Part shown: one piece after another, positions 14,688 through 64,000 of the stretch | Numbering within the stretch: position 1 is the first letter of the stretch | Layout: the number at the start of each line of letters is the position of its first letter | Assembly: GCF_003473485.1 (NCBI RefSeq) | Contig: NC_053042.1 | Location: 5,913,501-5,977,500 of the forward strand | Reading direction: 5' to 3' | DNA: 64,000 bases | From: Medicago truncatula | Taxonomy: Eukaryota > Streptophyta > Magnoliopsida > Fabales > Fabaceae | Made by a program: the position numbers and the translations under genes | The notes under the pieces: generated by a model | The model's database searches: none | Seen by the model: only the letters and a program-made list of their open reading frames with translations | What the model was told of the DNA's origin: nothing

Positions 14688-17004
14688 ATGAATTCTCTTC
14701 CTTGGCTCAGTCTTTTCTGCTTCTGTCTTTCTATTTTTCCTCTTTTAGCTTCTTCTACTTTGCTCTTTCAGGTATTTTATTAACACAAATCACACAACAC
14801 ACTTATTTCATTGACAACCTTAATCAAATGTGCATGTATATAATATAATAATTGTTTTTACAGGGATTCAACTGGGAGTCAAGTAACAAAGGAGGATGGT
14901 ACAACTCTTTGAAGAACCTCATTCCTGACCTAGCAAATGCTGGAATTACACATGTTTGGCTTCCTCCTCCATCTCAAAGTGTTGGTCCTCAAGGTAGCAC
15001 ATTTTTGTACCTGCTTTAATGGATGTGAATATGATGATCATTATTTGTCATTCATTTTCCAAACATATGATTCTCTAATTATTGTACTAGTAATTGATAT
15101 GTAATCATGTTAGGATCAATTAGGTTTTATGTGTAATTACTTTCTTTGTATGTTTGTCTCCAATACTATAATAGAAATATAAATAGGAGCACATACTTTA
15201 TTCATTTGAACCAGGATTTCTGTTCTTACATTATATAATATTGTTAATTTTTTTAATCCAGGATATCTTCCAGGAAGACTTTATGATCTTGATGCATCAA
15301 AATACGGTTCAAAAGATGACCTAAAGTCACTAATTGCAGCTTTCAAAGATAAAGGAATCAATTGTCTAGCTGACATAGTGATCAACCATAGAACAGCAGA
15401 AAGAAAAGATGATAGAGGCATCTATTGCCTCTTTGAAGGTGGGACTCCTGATTCAAAACTTGATTGGGGCCCATCTTTCATTTGCAAAGATGACACTGCT
15501 TATTCAGATGGCACTGGAAACCTCGATAGTGGAGAGGGCTATCAAGCTGCACCTGACATTGATCATCTCAATCCTCAAGTACAAAAAGAGTTATCTGAAT
15601 GGATGAATTGGCTCAAAACTGAAATTGGATTTTCTGGTTGGAGATTTGATTTTGTCAAAGGTTATGCGCCTAGCATAACAAAAATTTATATGGAAAATAC
15701 TTCGCCAGATTTTGCCGTGGGAGAATATTGGAATTCGCTTTCTTACGGACAAGATGGAAAACTCAACTATAATCAAGATGCAGCTAGAGGTGAACTTGTT
15801 AACTGGGTTGAAAATGGTGGCGGCGTTGTTAATGCATTTGATTTTACTACCAAAGGTATTCTTCAAGCTGCTGTACAAGGGGAACTTTGGAGGTTGAAAG
15901 ATTCAAATGGAAAACCACCTGGTTTGATTGGTATAAAACCAGAAAATGGTGCAACATTTATTGATAACCATGATACAGGTTCAACTCAGAAACTTTGGCC
16001 ATTTCCTTCTGACAAAGTCATGCAGGGTTATGCTTACATTCTAACACATCCTGGAACACCATCAATAGTACTTTCTCTAACCTTTTCACTTTTTATATTA
16101 TGTTGTTTTGAGTATTGAATAGAAATTTTTGGTTTTCTTGTTGAAGGAGGTTATTGGACCTGTATTCTTTGCATTTAGAGAATCCTAAATTGACACAGTC
16201 AAGCGATTTCAGTCTATTGAAAAACAGTTTAATTTGAATGCATCGACAGTGTTAAAAGTTTTACATTGTTAGTCCACCACAACCAAACATGTCTGCGACT
16301 TTTGAGGTGATCATAGAAAAAGTCTTTAACATTTTTGTTTATCGGATGACTGTAAACAGTTAAAACAAAATTCGTTCTCGCTAACTTTTGAGCTGTGGAC
16401 CTTCTAATTTTTACAAGGGTTGTGCTCACCCCTACAGTCACTTCGTACCATAGGAATCCATTTCCAAGTCATTTTTGTTATTCATTATTATTACTAGTAT
16501 AAAAGACGGAAATTGATTCCTAATAGTCAAATAGTGACTGTGCGGGAAGATCTCAAGCATCAAATTTTGATTCGTTGAGCTTAAAATCTGAACAACTGGT
16601 TTAAATCAAACGACCTTTAGTACACTGCAGGATTTGTCTAGCTTAAAATATGAACTATCTGATTTGAGTTTTTAGAAAAAATATTATAGACATTAATACA
16701 TATAAACCTACTATTGTAATTATATTTTTATGTAGTTATGGATTATTTTGTTATGCAGTTCTATGACCACTTCTTTGATTGGGGACTGAAGGATCAGATA
16801 GCAAAATTGACTGCAATTAGACAGAGGAATGGGATCAACATGAAAAGCACAGTGAACATTCTAGCAGCTGATGCTGACCTATATGTAGCAAAGATAGACA
16901 ACAAGATTATTGTAAAGATAGGACCAAGGATGGACCTTGGAAATCTTATTCCCTCTAATTTCCATGTTGCTACATCTGGCCAAGACTATGCCGTGTGGGA
17001 GTGA
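14688..17004 (+). CDS. AMY: Secreted alpha-amylase (GH13)
   Basis: The enzyme cleaves internal alpha-1,4 bonds of starch. Four exons join in frame: 14688-14771, 14864-14993, 15262-16067 and 16759-17004, encoding 421 aa, about the usual AMY1-type length. Exon 1 is almost exactly a signal peptide (hydrophobic [18 protein letters not shown]), so secretion or apoplastic/endomembrane location is inferred. Motifs: [10 protein letters not shown] (conserved region I), [10 protein letters not shown] with nucleophile Asp about 201, VGEYW with acid/base Glu about 226, and FIDNHDTGS with third Asp about 309. The C-terminal beta-sheet domain ends in SGQDYAVWE. No lesion was seen. Exon 4 and following DNA were duplicated at 20.3 kb, and a broken paralogue follows at 28.8 kb. 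Confidence 0.95.
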
Positions 17005-18577: not shown

Positions 18578-19770
18578 TTATGTCTGGAGAGACATGCCAC
18601 AGCTGAAATACAATGTGCCAAAGAAAATATGGAGCATTGCATGCATTACGATAAGTTAAGAAAATAAGTGTGAAACCTTTCACTTAGAAGACGCCTTAGC
18701 CTCTGACTTTCAATGGCAGGGAAATTCAATTTTCCATCTAATTTAGGATTTTTCTTTATGACTTTCTTAATTTCATCCATCACATTCTTTCTCCCAGAAT
18801 TTGCATCTTGATATGTTGAAAGTAATGAATGATCCCTAATCAGGTTAAAAAATAAAAAAAAGAAGTTATATACAATGATTCAATCCGAACTTCATCACAC
18901 AACATAAATATTGAATCATACCTTATATTGTCAATTGTCAGAAGATGAGTTAAGTCTTTAAATAGTGCTTCACTCTTTGAGCGAAATATTATCAGATCCG
19001 TCATGAGGATATTGGAAGCCTTGGCACGGTCGTTGCTAATGAAATAATACAAAAACTTAGAATAAGAAGAAAAAAAAATCATGATTATTAACTACTAAAA
19101 TATTGGGAAAAAGAATTCAAAAAGAAGAAATTGAAAAACTTTGTTTTATATTTGGTTCAAACAATGACTAAATACACTTAACATAGTCATTGTTACCTTC
19201 CAAAAATTAATTAGGATTTTTCTATCATGTGCAAATTTGCACATGTTAAGAAGTTTAAAATAGAAATTTTAACCTGTCTTTTTTGGTGCAAAACGTTTTA
19301 CATAAGATTTGCAATAAAATTTGCCATTGCACATATATAGAGCATAAAATTCTTAACTACCTGACCAATGCCTCAAGATATTTTTGCTTTCTAAGTTCAA
19401 AGAATATTTTGGTGGAGTGACTGTTATCTTCAACTTTTGTGAATCCAGATAGATATTTCTCAGCTTCATCCCACATCCCTTTGAGGATCATATCCTCGAA
19501 ATATTCCTTGTCAAAATACAATCCGCTTTCACGCTCAATCCTGTAAATTAACAAAAGAATGAAGTGAAAATGCAATTCAGTGTTAATCAAATAATCATAA
19601 AAGAGAAAAAAAAAACATAATCATAATCATATACGATAGTAAAAACTAAATATAAAAATTGTCGGAGTTAGAAGAGACACATACGTGTGAACCGTTTCCT
19701 TTAAACCTGCATCATCCAAATATTGTAACACTGAGAAGATGACATGCTCTTTGCTGTTGTTGTTTGCCAT
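18578..19770 (-). CDS. TOPLESS N-terminal-domain-only protein, copy 1
   Basis: Five exons (transcription order 19685-19770, 19361-19540, 18922-19035, 18677-18835, 18578-18602) join in frame into 187 aa. The product matches only the start of TOPLESS/TPR co-repressors: LisH (about 6-30), CTLH with KYLSGFTKVEDN and KIFFELRKQKYLEAL (about 30-90), and CRA helices (about 92-178). Full TOPLESS proteins continue for some 900 residues of WD40 propeller; here a 25-base exon adds SCGMSLQT and stops. In TOPLESS this domain binds EAR-motif peptides and oligomerises. By recalled TPL numbering, groove residues K71, F74, F104, L111, L130 and K149 are kept, while tetramer-contact K102, Q117 and E122 become I, H and D. 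A nuclear competitor of TOPLESS is inferred, not shown. Copy 2 has the same exon structure. Confidence 0.85.
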
Positions 19771-19856
19771 CTTGATAACAACTAATTCTGTTGAGAACTA
19801 AAGTATTCACTAACCAATAACAAAAGTTATGTAACATGGTTTAAGGTGTGATAGGG

Positions 19857-19864
19857 TATTTATA
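19857..19864 (-). promoter_or_regulatory. TATA box of TOPLESS-domain gene copy 1
   Basis: On the minus strand TATAAATA lies about 87 bases before the ATG. The same motif sits at the same distance, give or take a few bases, in the other two copies of this promoter. Confidence 0.55.
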
Positions 19865-19954
19865 CACATGAAGAGTAAAATTTCTTCTTCATATATTAAC
19901 ATTTATGATTTAAAATCAATTTAAATATTCTATAAAAAAAATTAAATTTTAATA

Positions 19955-20100
19955 TTTGTAAAAGCCGGTCAAATGCGTTATTGTAAAATAATATATATTT
20001 TAATTTATGATTCAAATCAATTTAAATATATTTGTAAAAGCCGGTCAAATGCGTTATAATAAAATAATATCTTTTTGACGAGAAAATAATATATTTCGTA
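19955..20100. repeat. Minisatellite with units of about 75 bp (2 units)
   Basis: Two units carry GTAAAAGCCGGTCAAATGCG followed by AAAATAATAT. The same units occur three times upstream of each of the other two TOPLESS-domain promoters, so the unit number varies among the duplicates. Confidence 0.75.
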
Positions 20101-20163
20101 CGGTCGATAAGATATCCTAGTATTTATTTAAAAAAGATATCATATTAGATCCTCTTATTCTCG

Positions 20164-20250
20164 GGAGTTTAATATAGTAGTCGGTAAGGATATTGTATAA
20201 TATATATATGGGTTGTTGTTGGAATCCCGAACACTCCACTTGTTCACTTT
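20164..20250 (+). mobile_element. tRNA-like SINE remnant
   Basis: A decayed head (AGTTTAATATAGTAGTCGGT) and an altered B-box region (GGAATCCCGAACACTCCACT) match the tRNA-like family seen elsewhere in the window. The internal part is degraded. Confidence 0.4.
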
Positions 20251-20463
20251 AAGATGTTTTTAAATCATTTACTGAACTTAAAATCTGAACTATCTAATTT
20301 CAATCAACGACCTTTAGTACACACTGACCGCAGGGTTTTGTGACTAAAGGGAATCTAGGGCTGATTATTTAATTTTGGTGAAAAATGAGTCTTATAAAAA
20401 ATAGTGTATACATATAAACCTACTATTGTGATTAATATAGTTATAGATTCTTTTGTTATGCAG

Positions 20464-20710
20464 TTCTACGACCACTTCTTTGATTGGGGACTGAAGGAGC
20501 AGATAACAAATTTGACTGTAATTAGACAGAGGAATGGGATCAATATGCAAAGCATTGTGAACATTCAAGCAGCAGATATGTAGCAGAAATAGACAACAAG
20601 ATTATTGTGAAAATAGGACCAAAGATGGACCTTGGTCCTTGGAAATCTTATTCCCACAAACTTCCACGTTGCTACATCTGGCCAAGACTATGTATACTAA
20701 ATCGAGTGCT
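20464..20710 (+). pseudogene. Alpha-amylase exon 4 fragment
   Basis: The segment starts exactly at the exon 4 acceptor (ATGCAG before TTCTACGACCAC) and is very similar to exon 4 of the intact amylase. It carries a short deletion in the stretch corresponding to [11 protein letters not shown] that shifts the frame to an immediate stop, plus a small direct duplication (CCTTGG) later. No other amylase exons precede it. It is a by-product of the segmental duplication and has no promoter of its own. Confidence 0.9.
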
Positions 20711-20854
20711 ATAAATACTATTTGGTGTTCATCATAAACTATTATATATTATAATCATGTCTTGTTATGCCCCCAAAATATAACATTCACTATTCATATT
20801 ATTTCAAGAATTTAATTACTATATGCCAATGATCATTTTTTCCTGAAAATGGTG

Positions 20855-21700
20855 GCAAAGATATATTTGAAATTGATAATGGAAAAAGAGTACAAGCGGT
20901 ATTACACCTACAAGTTGGAAACTAGTGTACCAACATCCAAAATTACAAGATACAATGTCTCCCTATAAAAGAGGTCTTATCTTATCTAAGCATACATTCG
21001 ATCAGGTTTACAAACCACTCTTAGAATAGGCATCCGAGTGTTTTCTCAGTAATGGAATTGATTAACATCGCTTTTCCATCCAAAGTCACATATCTATTTC
21101 TCTAAGTGGATAGTTTTTTCTCAACCCATGTAGACACCTTCGTTGGGTTTGCCCCAATCGGAAGACCAAGATAGACAAAAGGAATCGTTCCCCTTCTACT
21201 CTTTAAAAAAGGTGCCTTATTTCTAAAAAATTGTTCACTTTCATACTCCCACCAAACTACTTTTTGAAAAAATCACTTTCAACCTGAAAATTAATTCAAA
21301 CCATCTTAAAATGGCTTGCATACTCCACAAGTTATTCACACACATTTCCGTCTGCTTATTGGAGATGAGATACAACCTCTTCACATTTGAAAAAGTCTTT
21401 AAAATAGCCTAAGTCGATCGCTTTTTACATTAACACTCCAATCCCCTCCACAACCAATAAAAAGAGAGGAAAGGTGTCAATGGATTCCCTTGTTTCAACC
21501 ATTTGCTTATTTGCACTTGTTCCGTTGGGTTCCAATTAACCAACACCAATAAGCTCTCGAAGCACACACGCGCCTTCATCCAATTCTGTCATCTAGAGCA
21601 AAAGGCAAATCTACCAAACATATAATCTAAAATACTCTAACTAACCGAATCATATACTTTCTCAAAATTATAGATAATCACCAAGATTTATACGGGTTCC
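20855..21700 (-). mobile_element. LINE (L1-type) reverse-transcriptase remnant, copy 2
   Basis: It is collinear with the remnant at 17.2-18.1 kb and in the same orientation, carried along by the segmental duplication. It is heavily broken and shows independent small deletions relative to copy 1. Confidence 0.8.
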
Positions 21701-21786
21701 ACAACTTCCTTCTTACTAAGTTTATGAATATTACTCCATATTCCTTAAGTTGAAAAGTCTACAGGTTAAATCATTACTATTCAATT

Positions 21787-21968
21787 TGTTTAGATTTGCA
21801 ATGTAACTTTGAGATGAAGTTTATATGGAGGCAAGCGAATTTGGTAGCTCATAGTTTAGCTAGAGCTGTCAATTTTTATGCTAGCCACTAAATTCATGAT
21901 TATGTTCCCCTTGTATTTCCTCGTTATTTAATAATGAAATGAGTTAAGTTAGTTTCTTAAAAAAAAAT
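21787..21968 (+). mobile_element. 5'-truncated LINE 3' end with target-site duplication
   Basis: It encodes the end of a LINE RNase H region (RQANLVAHSLARAVNF) and ends in an A run. It is bounded by perfect 14-bp repeats ATTACTATTCAATT at 21773-21786 and 21969-21982. The equivalent site in unit 1 (about 18157-18170) has one uninterrupted copy, so this is a clean insertion that postdates the segmental duplication. Confidence 0.88.
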
Positions 21969-22416
21969 ATTACTATTCAATTGTTGCAATTTCATAGTCT
22001 AATTAACAAGAGCATTAAGATCGGTATCTCTCAAAAAAGCCAATTGATAATTTTCTATTCCTAATGAACACACATAAATAGCTTGTTTTCAATAGCTAAA
22101 TTAAATATTCTCTTAAAAAAAATATCTAAATAAAATATGAAAAAAAATAGCTAAATCAAATATAATTTTTCCAATAACGACAAAATAAAAAACTATAAGA
22201 AAGAGAACAAACTCTTGAACATCAATAACGACAAAATCATATCAAAATCCAGTCTCAAAATATGCCATACAAGCAAGTTCCATCTATTAAGAAAAATTTA
22301 ATTATTACTATTACGAAATAAAAAAACGATCAAAATACATGTTAAATAATCCTCCAACATGTGCTTAGCCTCCCACCATCAGCTCTCCCTTTTGGCTTCT
22401 TCGAACTACTCTCCTC

Positions 22417-23659
22417 TTAATTCTGGAGAGACATGCCACAGCTGAAATATATTACTTGATTAAATGTATAGTATAGTAAAAATATATTTATTAATTTTAA
22501 TACAATGTGCCCAAGAAAATATGGAGCATTGCATGTAATACGACAAGTTAAGAAAATAAGTGTGAAACCTTTCACTTAGAAGACGCATTAGCCTCTGACT
22601 TTCAATGGCAGGGAATTTCAACTTTCCATCTAGCATAGGATTTTTCTCCATGATTTTCTTAATTTCATCTATCACATTCTTTCTCCCCCAATTTGCATCT
22701 TGATATGTTGAAAGTAATGGATGATCCCTAATCAGGTTAAAAATAAAGTTATACACATAAAGAATGATTTAATTCGGACTTCATCACACAAAATAAATAT
22801 TGAATCATACCTTATATTTTCAATTGTCAGAAGATGAGTCAAATCTTTAAATAGTGCTTCACTTTTTGAGCGAAATACTATCAGATCCGTCATGAGGATA
22901 TTGGAAGCCTTGGCACGGTCGTTGCTAATGAATTAAGACAAAAGCATAGAATAAGAAGGAAAAAAATCATGATTATTAACTACTAAAATATTGTGAAAAA
23001 AATTCAAAAAGAAAAAAAATGAAAAACTTTGTTTTATATTTGGTTCAAACAATGACTAAATACAATTAACATAGTCATTGTTACCTTCCAAAAATTAATT
23101 ACGGTTTTTCTATCATGTGTAAATTTGCACATGTTAAGAAGTTTGAAATAGAAATTTTAACCTTTTTTTTTTTGGTGCAAAATGCTTTACATAAAATTGG
23201 CAATAAAATTTGTCATTGCACATATATTGAGCATAAAATTCTTAACTACCTGTCCAATGCCTCAAGATATTTTTGCTTTCTAAGTTCAAAGAATATTTTG
23301 GTGGAGTGACCGTTGTCTTCAACTTTTGTGAATCCAGTTAGATATTTCTCAGCTTCATCCCACATCCCTTTGAGGATCATATCCTCGAAATATTCCTTGT
23401 CAAAATACAAACTGCTTTCACGCTCAATCCTGTAAATTAACAAAAGAATGAAGTGAAAATGAAATTCAGTGTTAAACAAATAATCATAAAAGAGAAAAAA
23501 ACATATTCATAATCGTATATGATAGTAAAAATAAATATAAGAATTGTTGGAGTTGAAAGAAAGAGATACATACGTATGTATCGTTTCCTTTAGACCTGCA
23601 TCACCCAAATATTGTAACACTGAGAAGATAACCTGCTCTTTGCTGTTGTTGTTTGCCAT
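22417..23659 (-). CDS. TOPLESS N-terminal-domain-only protein, copy 2
   Basis: Five exons (23574-23659, 23250-23429, 22811-22924, 22569-22727, 22417-22441 in transcription order) give 187 aa with the same exon lengths as copy 1 and a C-terminus ending SCGMSLQN. LisH, CTLH and CRA segments are intact and most differences from copy 1 are single substitutions (for example YLTGF for YLSGF). Every junction and the reading frame survive, which argues that both copies stayed under selection, though a recent duplication could also explain this. The recalled tetramer positions read I104 and H119 here with Glu at 124; EAR-groove positions are kept. No WD40 exons were found on either strand nearby. The in-frame extension past exon 4 into the intron is not favoured because the spliced ending is shared with copy 1. 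Confidence 0.85.
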
Positions 23660-23746: not shown

Positions 23747-23754
23747 TATTTATA
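23747..23754 (-). promoter_or_regulatory. TATA box of TOPLESS-domain gene copy 2
   Basis: Minus-strand TATAAATA lies about 88 bases upstream of the ATG, in the same context as copy 1. Confidence 0.55.
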
Positions 23755-24714: not shown

Positions 24715-25420
24715 TTTTTTTATTATTATTATTATTACTAGCGCCGTCTTTTCGCTCTTTTTATTGCGTTAACGTTTGAAAATTATGAACGCTATTATTT
24801 TATGAAATTTTAATCTTGATCAAAAGTAAAAATATCAACAATATTTATTATAGAAAAAGTTGTTATTTAAGGGTATAATTGGGACAATGAAAAAGTAAAT
24901 ATAGATACAGTCATCTAGTTTGTTACACTTTTTAAACGATAAAGGAAAAAATTGGACATTTGTGTTTGTTACACTTTTATTTTAATATTTACATTTATTC
25001 TTATCTATTTGTTACATGTGTTATTTGTATTGAAAATTGATGACATTTATGAAAAGAAAAATTCAGCCCAAAAGAGCTGAAAATGGTTGTTTTCTTTATA
25101 TATAAGTGTCCATCTTTCCACTCTTTTTATTGCACTAACGTTTGAAAATTATGAGCGGTGTTTTTTTTTTATTTTTTTTTTTTTATGAAATTTTGATTTT
25201 GATTAAAACGAAAAAGTTATAACAAATTAAACTAACCATGATTATCTATTTCAATGACACAAAAAAAAAAATTATGGACAATAATTTTTAGCGACGCCAA
25301 CAATAATCTTTATTATATAAAAAGTTGTTTAACAGCATAAGTGGGATAATGAAAAGGTATGTATAAATATACTCATATAGTTTGTTACACTTTTTAAATG
25401 ATAAAGGAAAAAAAAACATA
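24715..25420. repeat. Pair of related AT-rich repeats
   Basis: Segments at about 24735-24960 and 25115-25410 share CTCTTTTTATTGC, AACGTTTGAAAATTATGA, ATGAAATTTT and GTTTGTTACACTTTTTAAA. The family is not recognised. The right copy abuts the truncated TOPLESS-domain copy 3. Confidence 0.6.
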
Positions 25421-25696
25421 ATCATAATCATATATGATATTAAAAGCTAAATATAAGAATTGTTGGAGTTAGAAGAGACACATACGTTTGTTACACTTTT
25501 TAAATGATAAAGGAAAAAAAACATAATCATAATCATATATGATAGTAAAAACTAAATATAAGAATTGTTGGAGTTAGAAGAGACATATACGTTTGTTACA
25601 CTTTTTAAATGATAAAGGAAAAAAAACATAATCATAATCATATATGATAGTAAAAACTAAATATAAGAATTGTTGGAGTTAAAAGAGATACATACG
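25381..25696. repeat. Three 105-106 bp tandem units spanning a breakpoint
   Basis: Units 25381-25486, 25487-25591 and 25592-25696 are nearly identical. Each joins the end of the neighbouring repeat (TTTGTTACACTTTTTAAA) to TOPLESS-domain intron 1 (ATAATCATATATGATA to ACATACG). The rearrangement junction itself was therefore amplified after it formed. Confidence 0.85.
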
Positions 25697-25784
25697 TGTG
25701 TACCGTTTCCTTTAGACCTACATCACCCAAATATTGCAACACTGAGAAGACGACCTGCTCTTTGCTGTTGTCGTTGTTTGCCAT
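25696..25784 (-). pseudogene. TOPLESS-domain gene copy 3, exon 1 only
   Basis: Exon 1 is intact with ATG, LisH start and donor site, and has one extra codon compared with copies 1 and 2 (N-N-D-N in place of N-N-N). Everything downstream of a short intron 1 stretch is missing and replaced by unrelated repeats. The promoter with TATA box is retained. It could still be transcribed as a short non-coding or micropeptide RNA, but no functional protein is expected. Confidence 0.85.
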
Positions 25785-28778: not shown

Positions 28779-30767
28779 ATGAAGTTTCTCCATTCAATAT
28801 GCTTCCTTTGCCTTTGCATTTCTATTTTTCCCTCTTTTTCTTCCTCTGCCATACTATTTCAGGTATAAACATTCTTTTGTCCTTCCACTCCTCTCTTTGT
28901 TTCATTTTATATTTAAATTTAATTAATTTATTAGATATTATTATGCAAAAACCATCGAAATACATGTGTTTGTTTTCTTCTATAGCACCGACACTTCAGA
29001 TGGAAGACGTGTCCAATGTCCGACATGGACATGTTGATTACATTCAATTAATTTTTTTTTCCAGTTTTTTATCGGTATTTGCGAGTCCATATTAGTGTCG
29101 TGTCCGGTGTTCGTGTGTGTCTGTATTTTTTTTTTCTTTTCCTTCTAATAGTGGGGAAGAGAGTTTAAAAGATATGAATTACATGTGTACATGTTGTAGG
29201 GGTTCAAGTGGGCATCAAGTGAAAAAGAAGGAGGATGGTGGAATTTCCTGAAGACCAAGGTCCCTGACATAGCAGATGCTGGTGTTGAATATGTTTGGCT
29301 TCCTCCTCCTTCCAACTCTCATGATGATGGTCCTCAAGGTAATTAATTAACCACTTCACAATATTATTATTTTTTGAGGGATTTTTCTAAACACATTTGT
29401 TTTCGTATTGAAAGGTTACTTGCCTAAAAGGCTATATGATCTTGACACATCCAAATACGGCAACAAGCAAGAACTGAAGTCATTAGTAGCAGCATTTCGT
29501 GAACAAGGAGTAAAATCCATATCTGATATAGTCATAAACCACAGAACAGCAGAGAGGTTAGACAACAATGGACTTAGCATCTTCGAAGGTGGTACTCCCG
29601 ACAATCGTCTAGATTGGGATGTGTCCTACATTTGTGGCAATGATGTTCAATTTAAAGGCACGGGAAACAACGACACAGGTATTACTATTCTCGATAGAAG
29701 TCACTGATAATATAAAATCCATCAAAGGATAGAAGTATAATGCTTATGTAGTAGAGAAGAACAACTAACCAGTGTAACTAACAATTAGTTACACCAAAAG
29801 ATACGTAAGACTTATATATAGTCGATAAAAATAAAAACTATAACTAGTTTAACTAACTATTACATCTAATAATCTAATAATAGGAGATGATTGGGGAGGA
29901 GCACCTGACGTCGATCACACAAATCCGAAAGTACAACAAGAGTTATCAGATTGGATGAATTGGTTGAAAACAGATGTTGGTTTTGTTGGTTGAATATTCG
30001 ACATGGTTGTTGGATATGCTCCAAGGTTCACAAAAAACTACGTGGAGAAAACCTCGCCTGATTTCACAGTTGGAGAGCTTTATAGAAACGTCGAATTAGG
30101 TTCAGATGGAAAACCATTGGCTAATCAAGATAAGCACCGTGAAACTTTAGTTAAATGGGTTAATGATGCTGGTGGTGTTGTTACTACTTTTGATTTTACT
30201 ACTAAGATGATTTTAGGTGCTGCTGTTCAAGGTGAACTTTGGAGGATGAAAGATGCTAATGGAAAACCACCTGGGATGATTGGAATAATGCCATCAAATG
30301 CTGTTACTTTTGTGGATAATCATGATACTGGGTCTCAGAAATTATGGCCATTTCCAGATGATAAAGTTATGTTGGGTTATGTTTATATTCTTACTCATCC
30401 TGGTCACCCTACAATTGTAAGTAACATGCATAAACCACAATCCTCTAATTTTTTTTTTGGTTAATTATAGGTTTTAGTATTAATTAATTGTTTAATTAAC
30501 TGTTGGTGCATGCAGTTCTATGATCACTACATAGAATGGGGACTAATGGAGCCTATAAAGAAATTGACAGCAATAAGGAAGAGGAATGGAATTACAGCAA
30601 CAAGCAATGTGAATATTTTGGCAGCTGAGAATGATCTCTATATGGCTAATATTGGCAACAAAATTATTGTTAAGATTGGACCTAAATTGGATCTTGGAAA
30701 CCTTCTTCCACCCAATGCACAGGTAGCTACCAGTGGACAAGATTATGCTGTATGGGAAATTAAGTGA
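28779..30767 (+). pseudogene. Second alpha-amylase, one in-frame stop
   Basis: Five exons (28779-28862, 29200-29338, 29415-29678, 29884-30416, 30516-30767) join in frame to 424 codons, but codon 199 (TGA at 29991-29993) replaces the Trp of the GWRFD motif and the next codon gives Ile instead of Arg, just before the nucleophile Asp. Both WR residues are conserved in GH13 amylases, so readthrough product would still be impaired. The rest is well preserved: signal peptide, [15 protein letters not shown] with the acid/base Glu, FVDNHDTGS and the C-terminal domain. It has one more intron (29679-29883) than the neighbouring amylase, at the loop before APDVDH. Promoter and splice sites look normal. 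A sequencing error cannot be excluded for the stop, but the adjacent Arg change supports real decay. Confidence 0.8.
28984..29128. mobile_element. Degraded MITE-like element in amylase-2 intron 1
   Basis: It starts AGCACCGACACTTCAG and holds GTGTCCGGTGTTCGTGTGTG near the end. It resembles the AGCACGGACACT element in the VPS11 intron at 42.2 kb. Confidence 0.4.
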
Positions 30768-62199: not shown

Positions 62200-64000
62200 T
62201 TAAAGAGTAACCCCCATATTAACATCATTCTCTGGATTGGTGAATTGGATATCCATCATACTACTTTTCTCTTTCAACACATGGATTCCACTTTTATGGA
62301 ATTCAAACCCAAAGTCAACTACCACATGGTTCCACTCATTTTCTAAAAGTGCTGCATCCACATCATCATTGAATTTTTCTATTTGCATATGAAAAATATG
62401 TAAATGAAACGATATCGGCCACTCATAGTCAGCCTCGACATCCCTGTAGAAAAATGTTTTGCCATTGATGAACACTTTCACGTTAGGTTGATAATTATCC
62501 CTTGTCAATGGAGAAACAACACAAAGAACTATGGCAGGGAACTTGTTACGAAACCAGAATGAAATTGACAGTCCTTGCATGCATTGGTGGTCAATCCACT
62601 TTGGAATCTCTGCTTGCGGAAAAACAAAACTGGTGTTTCCAGATTCATGGAGTTCCTGTAAGTCATAGATAATTCATAAAAGTTTAGGTCTTTAGGGACA
62701 TTAAGAAGAATATCAATTATCAAATCAACTAAGCTAAAAAAAAGAAAAATAAATCAAGACCTGATTCATAAACTTGCTTGTACACGACAAAGTCAAAGAT
62801 ATGCAGTTAATGGCCGAAAAAGTTTTTAAGTTTGGCGGAATCCCTTTGATTTCCTGAAGATTCTCACAGTTATCCAAGAAAAGCTTCTATAAAAAGTGGC
62901 ATTTTTCAATGCAGTTGGGGAGAATGGTAAATTTACTCCAACTTAGGTATAATTCTTTAACATTAGCAAACCACATAAGACCGATTGCCAATGATTCATC
63001 AGAAAGGTTGCAGTTCCAGACACGAAGAAATTCTACTTGTGAAGACTGCATTGAGATGACTTCTTTGTCACCCTGGTCTTCTTTTTGGAATAGCCATCCC
63101 CCATCCTCTATGATAAGCTCATCCAGTTCTTGCATCATGACAATGCTACTTGGTAACTGAACAATTCCACAATTACAAAGATATAATGTTCGAAGTCGAG
63201 TAAGATTTTGAAAAGAAAATGGCAATTCCTTTATGGGAGTTGTATACAGGTGAACTTGTCTTATATTTTCCATCTCTCCTAATATTTTTGGAAAACTCTC
63301 AAGGTTATCACAATATGAAAGATCAAGAACTTCTAGCGAAGCAAACTTGAGAGGTGGAATACTCTTGAGCTTGCGGCAATATCTAACACTGAGGACTTTG
63401 AGATTATTTGGAAACCGATCCACCACAAGTGGAAAACACTCAAGATTATGACAATATGAAAGATTGAGTTCTTCTAGCGAAGCCAAATTGAGAGGCGGGA
63501 TACTCCTAATATTGCTGCAATTTGTAACTCTCAAGATTTTAAGTTTCTTCAGCTGTCCATCCACAATAGGTGGAAAACTCTTGAGACTATCACAATAAGA
63601 AAGATCGAGTTGTTCCAGCGAATCTAATTTGAGAGGTGGAATACTCTTGAGCTTGTGGCAATATCTAACATTAAGGACCTTAAGTTTACCCAGCAACCCA
63701 TCTACCACATGTGGAAAACTCTCGAGGCCATCACAATATGTAAGATTAAGTTCTTCTAGGGAAGTCAACTTGAGAGGTGGGATACTTTGGATGCGGTTGC
63801 AACTTATAACTCTGAAGATTCTAAGTTTCTCTAGCATCCCATCCACCACAGGTGGAAAACTCACAAGACTATCACAATATGAAAGATCAAAATGTTCCAG
63901 TAAAGCCAACTTGAGAGGTGGAATGCTCCTGAGCTTGCTGCAATATATAATACTCAAGAATTGAAGTTTATCCATAAATCCATCCACCAAAAGAGGAAAA
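62200..64000 (-). CDS. TIR-NBS-LRR-type resistance protein, 3' part (probable pseudogene)
   Basis: The visible part starts beyond the window and holds five LRR units of 47 residues (core SIPPLKLxSLEELxLSYC), then more standard LRRs (IKELPFSFQNLTRLRTLYL, LPSSI). The frame meets TAG at 62887-62889 just after EKCHFL. The same frame continues to a donor at 62761 (KLFLDNCENLQEIKGIPPNL), and a last exon (62200-62655) encodes a C-JID-like post-LRR domain (FPQAEIPKW, GLSISFWFRNKFPA, NEWNHVVVDF). Such C-terminal domains are typical of TNL receptors, so TNL is inferred though TIR and NBS are outside the window. The stop would delete the post-LRR domain, which many TNLs need; either a truncated variant or a pseudogene. 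Confidence 0.75.
63255..63990 (-). repeat. 141-bp tandem LRR-coding repeats
   Basis: Five successive 47-codon units are similar at DNA level (GGTGGAAAACTC, ATCACAATATGAAAGAT and AACTTGAGAGGTGGAATACT recur on the plus strand). Alternate units are more alike (C-N/S-N-I type against V-R-Y-C-x-K-L-K type), pointing to a 282-bp higher-order duplication. Confidence 0.8.

Follow-up and report, generated by a model that had tools for sequence, protein, structure and literature searches.

Two small genes of Medicago truncatula that resemble the N-terminal domain of the corepressor TOPLESS (TPL) lie in tandem, 3.9 kb apart, in the 64,000-nucleotide stretch analysed here, the window (C1:5,913,501-5,977,500 of a genome of 430 Mb); features are given in window numbering. 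Gene A occupies 19770..18578 and gene B 23659..22417, both on the minus strand and with open frames. Their exon lengths are alike, 86, 180, 114, 159 and 25 nt, adding up to 564 nt and a protein of 187 aa each, and GT..AG is present at every exon junction. Frames and junctions thus bear out the original prediction, made from the letters of this DNA, of two intact five-exon genes for 187-aa proteins, with outer limits at 18578 and 23659. A third copy, absent from that prediction, is reduced to its first exon.

19685..19770, minus strand: A exon 1, start codon at 19770
19361..19540, minus strand: A exon 2, 180 nt, corresponding to TPL exon 2
18922..19035, minus strand: A exon 3, equal in length to TPL exon 3 (114 nt)
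18677..18835, minus strand: A exon 4, equal in length to TPL exon 4 (159 nt)
18578..18602, minus strand: A proposed exon 5, 25 nt, SCGMSLQT tail, gene model only
23574..23659, minus strand: B exon 1, start codon at 23659
23250..23429, minus strand: B exon 2, matching TPL exon 2
22811..22924, minus strand: B exon 3, matching TPL exon 3
22569..22727, minus strand: B exon 4, matching TPL exon 4
22417..22441, minus strand: B proposed exon 5, 25 nt, gene model only, placed where homology to the relative at C1:2.70 Mb ends
19857..19864, minus strand: TATAAATA, beginning 94 nt before the A start codon, candidate TATA box
23747..23754, minus strand: TATAAATA, beginning 95 nt before the B start codon, candidate element
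25696..25784, minus strand: third copy, reduced to exon 1; TATAAATA again lies 94 nt upstream

Directly after exon 1 of the third copy, the border between exon 1 and intron 1 is repeated at intervals of 105 bp (25409-25775).

The N-terminal domain of TOPLESS without its WD40 exons

The CTLH-CRA part of TPL is recognised in both products, PF21889 scoring 166.6 bits in A and 166.7 bits in B at a Pfam cut-off of 27. LisH_TPL (PF17814) reaches 24.9 and 19.2 bits, under its cut-off of 30.7; hence the claim that the proteins equal the LisH-CTLH-CRA part of TPL holds for CTLH-CRA and is weakest for LisH. Residues 8-182 of A, the one product compared in this way, align without a gap to TPL (5nqs) with an E value of 8.3e-56 (phmmer), which rules out chance similarity. 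Given these 175 gapless residues on a solved TPL structure, it follows that A is predicted to adopt the fold of the TPL N-domain. Pfam matches of A to Csx12 and Ribosomal_L38e are under cut-off and were discarded as noise.

For comparison we took six canonical TPL genes (L069-L074) from this genome and recovered their exons by mutual similarity from frames of at least 30 aa; the set is incomplete, lacking shorter frames, exon 1 of L073 and the 3' end of L070. In a tblastn search of the 64 kb window, canonical exons 2-4 match A and B and exon 1 matches A only (best E 4e-5). The recovered exons past exon 4 give chance-level matches only (best E 0.02), and no recovered zinc-finger or WD40 exon was convincingly matched in the window, in agreement with the claim that no WD40 exons lie nearby. 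A genome search with the zinc-finger and WD40 portion of L071, joined into one query, gave at least 84 matches; among the matches listed (57 of 156 candidates scored), none falls in the window and none near the N-domain copies on C7 and C6 described below. Exons 2-4 measure 180, 114 and 159 nt, with equal phases, in A, B, the gene at C1:2.70 Mb and all five canonical TPL genes spliced, L073 being left out of this comparison for its missing exon 1. Retroposition was rejected as the origin of the copies, the introns being retained in place.

Relatives, origin and a probable new 3' end

A genome search with PF21889 gave 63 matches and one with the B protein 62, every candidate being scored in both (68 and 70, respectively). 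Besides the six canonical genes, divergent WD40-bearing TPL-like genes are found at C1:2.70, C2:13.70, C2:13.79 and C2:33.41 Mb, while copies with the N-domain alone lie at C7:26.90-26.94 and C6:26.60-26.62 Mb. The nearest relative of A and B with WD40 exons is the gene at C1:2,696,725-2,703,494 (L044, L078), hereafter the C1:2.70 gene. Seven DNA blocks of 71-79% identity, introns included, connect it to the region of A, B and the third copy; its introns can be aligned with theirs and its exons 2-4 are equal in length. Unlike A and B, it continues past the N-domain into a zinc-finger-type exon (LNWQHQ) and WD40 exons of the second half. Homologues of exons 6-14 were not recognisable for this gene in the 7.3 kb read, and it may in turn be a TOPLESS that is half lost.

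In a tree built from exon DNA, A groups with B (IQ-TREE support 100, FastTree 0.998) and both with the C7 copies (98 and 0.859). The C1:2.70 gene and C6 adjoin this group (72 and 0.429), and the whole clade is separate from the canonical and C2 genes (100 and 0.993). Left out of the tree were L073, the fragments at C2:13.717, C1:33.61, C7:32.50, C7:17.01 and C3:13.23 Mb, and every unit except one from the array on C6. The half-copies on C7 form four convergent inverted pairs, and none of the eight is intact, each being interrupted by stops or frameshifts or missing exons 3-4; those C6 copies that were read are likewise broken or incomplete. Among the N-domain-only copies examined, A and B are the only ones whole and open. 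A and B look like young, probably lineage-specific, WD40-less TOPLESS-like genes.

At the C7 locus (C7:26,901,800-26,935,720; L003-L008, L042-L055), the four convergent inverted repeats of N-domain pseudogenes are 84-90% self-complementary and have exact runs of 20-35 nt in common with exons 1-4 of A and B, which makes them possible hairpin sources of small RNA. On C6 (26,599,000-26,616,500; L032-L037, L062-L067), six listed tandem units spaced 2,876-2,877 bp apart each carry a broken TPL exon 2, and inverted matches of about 460-530 bp were seen in the stretch read.

Where did the 3' end of A and B come from? Intron 4 of the C1:2.70 gene is homologous to intron 4 of B up to window position 22440, 2 bases beyond the proposed exon-5 acceptor (TTTCAG), and there the homology ends; the next exon of that gene (SLNWQHQ..., zinc-finger type) starts farther downstream. 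Intron 4 of A is shortened by 53 bases and shows no separate homology block to the C1:2.70 gene. A query of 282 bases starting at B exon 5 located the exon in A and B only, a search from which a lone 25-base copy could escape. Because homology ends within intron 4 and exon 5 was located only in A and B, the SCGMSLQT tail looks like new sequence acquired after truncation inside intron 4. The donor belonging to exon 5 is inherited (GTTTCA in A and B, GTTCCA in the C1:2.70 gene), the proposed acceptor is old intron sequence, and exon 5 may be cryptic. The shared SCGMSLQ tail on a 25-base last exon is present in both models, as originally proposed, the exon itself being a gene model and not an observation. 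Were intron 4 retained, A would end ..LLSERFHTYFLNLS at 189 aa and B would extend to 215 aa, instead of 187. Two further observations concern this region. A 71% match to the DNA past B exon 5, without the 25-base exon, lies at C1:3,547,086-3,547,306 and may mark the source of the new 3' end; an upstream TTTCAG in intron 4 of the C1:2.70 gene, if used as acceptor, would also yield an N-domain-only product.

The duplicated units that contain A and B include an amylase-like 3' fragment and remnants resembling long interspersed nuclear elements (LINEs), and other amylase-like sequence flanks them:

20395..22416, no strand: spacer of the duplicated unit, with amylase-like fragment and LINE-like remnants
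about 20458-20692, plus strand: fragment resembling an alpha-amylase C-terminal exon, by similarity
21105-21272, minus strand: LINE-like remnant, no Pfam hit
21754-21888, plus strand: LINE-like remnant, no Pfam hit
16720-17001: alpha-amylase C-terminal exon (Alpha-amyl_C2, 88.8 bits)
30510-30757: fragment similar to an alpha-amylase C-terminal exon, by similarity

The remnants at 21105-21272 and 21754-21888, which gave no Pfam hit, we take to be LINE-like, and the frames farther upstream at 15378 and 30003 are presumably amylase-like, that at 30003 having no Pfam hit. At the far end of the window (62887-63990), a leucine-rich-repeat frame of disease-resistance type has repeats every 141 bases that are 74-79% alike.

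Selection on A and B

Between A and B, 31 of the 539 sites in exons 1-4 are different (5.8%) and there is no indel, whereas the introns differ at 57 of 621 aligned sites (9.2%) and hold seven indels. The difference in indels between exons and introns is significant (P 0.002; P 0.013 when only frameshifting indels are counted). Because the copies differ by so little, the preservation of every splice junction and frame in both, correctly noted in the original prediction, is by itself a weak sign of a working gene. The rates of nonsynonymous and synonymous substitution are 0.047 (dN) and 0.118 (dS), a dN/dS of 0.40 by the NG86 method and 0.55 by maximum likelihood. Nonsynonymous differences number 19.5 and synonymous ones 11.5; Fisher's test on these counts, truncated to integers, gives P 0.03. 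In neutral simulations with 31 changes, 68% of 4000 runs gained a stop, and of the 1268 stop-free runs 5% reached a ratio that low.

Changes were assigned to branches by parsimony, with C7 and the C1:2.70 gene as outgroups, broken C7 copies being used and eight bases remaining ambiguous; the neutral nonsynonymous share was set at 0.761, the simulation median. Codons 1-3, misaligned against C7, were dropped from the counts (six stem changes, five of them nonsynonymous). On the B branch 8 of 17 changes are nonsynonymous (P 0.009), on the A branch 11 of 14 (P 0.69), which is the neutral expectation. The stem leading to A and B has 10 of 17 (P 0.09), or 15 of 23 (P 0.16) when codons 1-3 are included. 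All branches pooled give 29 of 48 (P 0.011). These tests are small and use overlapping data, and their P values are uncorrected for number. Constraint on B is probable, none is shown on A, and the indication of constraint on the pair overall is weak. For the proposal of a working gene, against which a dN/dS near 1 would have counted, the outcome is mixed: the ratio is about 0.4, and B looks constrained but A does not.

A putative mini-corepressor and its alternatives

What could such products do? R67, K71 and K78 (numbered, like all residues below, as in Arabidopsis TPL) we take to have roles in the groove that binds EAR motifs. K71 and K78 are kept in A and B, as is F74, whose change to alanine in TPL lost client binding (PMC6797205). 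Three of the four MED21 contacts (E146, K148, K149) are also kept in both. Several of the contacts through which TPL oligomerises are altered: the LisH contacts S5, L8, F15 and E19 read S, V, Y and A in A and B, the alignment at position 5 being ambiguous, and the CRA contacts K102, T116, Q117 and E122 read I, T, H and D/E. H117 also occurs in the canonical gene L074, and position 122 is variable among canonical genes. E19>A is common to six of the eight C7 copies; K102>I is later than the split from C7, the two C7 copies that reach this position having K. N176, the tpl-1 position, is S in both A and B.

We tentatively favour the reading that A and B encode small, mostly monomeric EAR-binding mini-corepressors that arose from a young WD40-less duplication. 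A DNA duplication of the front of a TPL-like gene, of the C1:2.70 type, would have lost everything past exon 4. Its product, of 187 aa (189 for A or 215 for B with intron 4 retained), would resemble the engineered TPLN188, retain a groove for EAR motifs along with most of the MED21 surface on helix 8, and oligomerise poorly. EAR proteins would recruit this mini-corepressor, which would itself repress and would be a mild competitor of full-length TPL for certain clients. Of the two copies, B is more likely to be working, and A may be drifting. The Arabidopsis fragment TPLN188 was sufficient for repression, multimer mutants repressed as well, and without a client fusion TPLN188 left lateral roots unaffected (Leydon 2021, PMC8203292). 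Unfused N188 together with IAA3 makes a working repression assay in yeast, which implies that free N188 represses when recruited by IAA3 (PMC13251949). The stronger version of this reading, in which B, and possibly also A, works in nature as a lineage-specific, largely monomeric mini-corepressor that reads EAR motifs without WD40 propellers or tetramer assembly, so offering a natural test of whether TOPLESS needs either, and in which the C7 repeats, if transcribed, could yield hairpin RNAs that silence A and B, we regard as rather unlikely.

A number of points weigh against a mini-corepressor. R67 is replaced by S in A and by G in B; V145 is D in both, at a site that also varies among the canonical genes here, and I142 is N. 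For the original idea of a free-standing EAR-binding N-domain, the genes, their frames and the F74 groove speak in favour and the loss of R67 against. The LisH scores under cut-off, the neutral-like A branch and the non-significant stem also count against a mini-corepressor. SlTPL6, a divergent tomato TPL, is unable to bind Aux/IAAs (PMC3935560), and the decay of all eight half-copies on C7 indicates that the family mostly dies.

Next after a mini-corepressor we rank the explanation that A and B are young duplicates on their way to becoming pseudogenes, open through age and not selection, with little or no function. We consider it a serious possibility, if not the one we would choose. The A branch, the broken C7 and C6 copies, the third copy reduced to exon 1 and the setting amid amylase-like fragments and LINE-like remnants all fit it. 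It has to contend with the constrained B branch, with exons free of indels where, at the rate seen in introns, about six are expected, with the stops that most neutral simulations gained, and with 5' flanks in which TATAAATA is retained.

That a free N-domain would act as a decoy microprotein, occupying EAR motifs so that repression is lifted, was the first half of the mode of action originally proposed. The retained F74, K71 and K78 would serve such a decoy, as would the lack of a WD40 part among the recovered TPL exons matched to the window, and the EAR-motif effector RxL21, competing at this interface, does lift repression (PMC13251949). Yet the N-domain of TPL bears repression surfaces of its own, R67 is lost, and high expression would be required; we hold a decoy to be unlikely. 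The second half, that the products poison TPL oligomers by forming inactive mixed tetramers, is weakened and quite improbable. It draws on the retained part being the oligomerising part of TPL and on the change at the tpl-1 position, tpl-1 having been proposed to inhibit the whole family. However, L8>V, F15>Y, E19>A and K102>I fall at positions whose combined mutation gave monomers, F15Y being one published 'Monomer' change, though mild alone, and TPL repression did not require multimerisation. Because TPLN188 represses without multimers and free N188 is implied to repress via IAA3, a mini-corepressor appears likelier than an oligomer poison, with the decoy in between. Finally, the idea that A and B are the front of longer genes whose WD40 exons lie far away, for which the sole support is that TPL genes have such exons, is very improbable and was rejected on the search of the window with the recovered exons past exon 4 and on the genome search, in which no WD40-part match within C1:5.91-5.98 Mb was among the matches listed.

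With the TOPLESS/TPR corepressors (PDB 5nqs, 5jhp, 4zhe; L069-L074), A and B have in common exons 1-4, their phases and CTLH-CRA; they differ in that no zinc-finger exon or WD40 propellers were detected, LisH is below threshold and several oligomer-contact residues are changed. The engineered TPLN188 covers nearly the same extent of TPL, yet it is man-made and has the LisH and CRA contacts of TPL, whereas A and B are natural and diverged, with contacts altered (PMC8203292). Tomato likewise has partial or divergent TPL family members; three truncated TPLs there lack LisH and CTLH, the half opposite to the one missing in A and B, and SlTPL6 is full length (PMC3935560). Trans-microProteins, too, have separate small genes, produced when a multidomain gene is amplified and loses domains (PMC6003976). 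By sequence, A and B are putative small genes of this kind, connected to a larger multidomain gene through the loss of domains. The microProteins miP1a/b recruit TPL and do not derive from it. A soybean TPL survey excluded truncated sequences by design (PMC13275459), and in the excerpts of open-licence literature on WD40-less plant TPL genes we found no description of an N-domain-only TPL gene.

If A and B are not functional, they are a clear case of how domain-only 'microprotein' genes can come about by truncation inside an intron and then mostly decay. If they are expressed and functional, they would be a natural counterpart of TPLN188, a corepressor reduced to its EAR-reading half with oligomer contacts altered, and would permit one to ask in the plant whether TOPLESS action needs WD40 propellers and tetramers.

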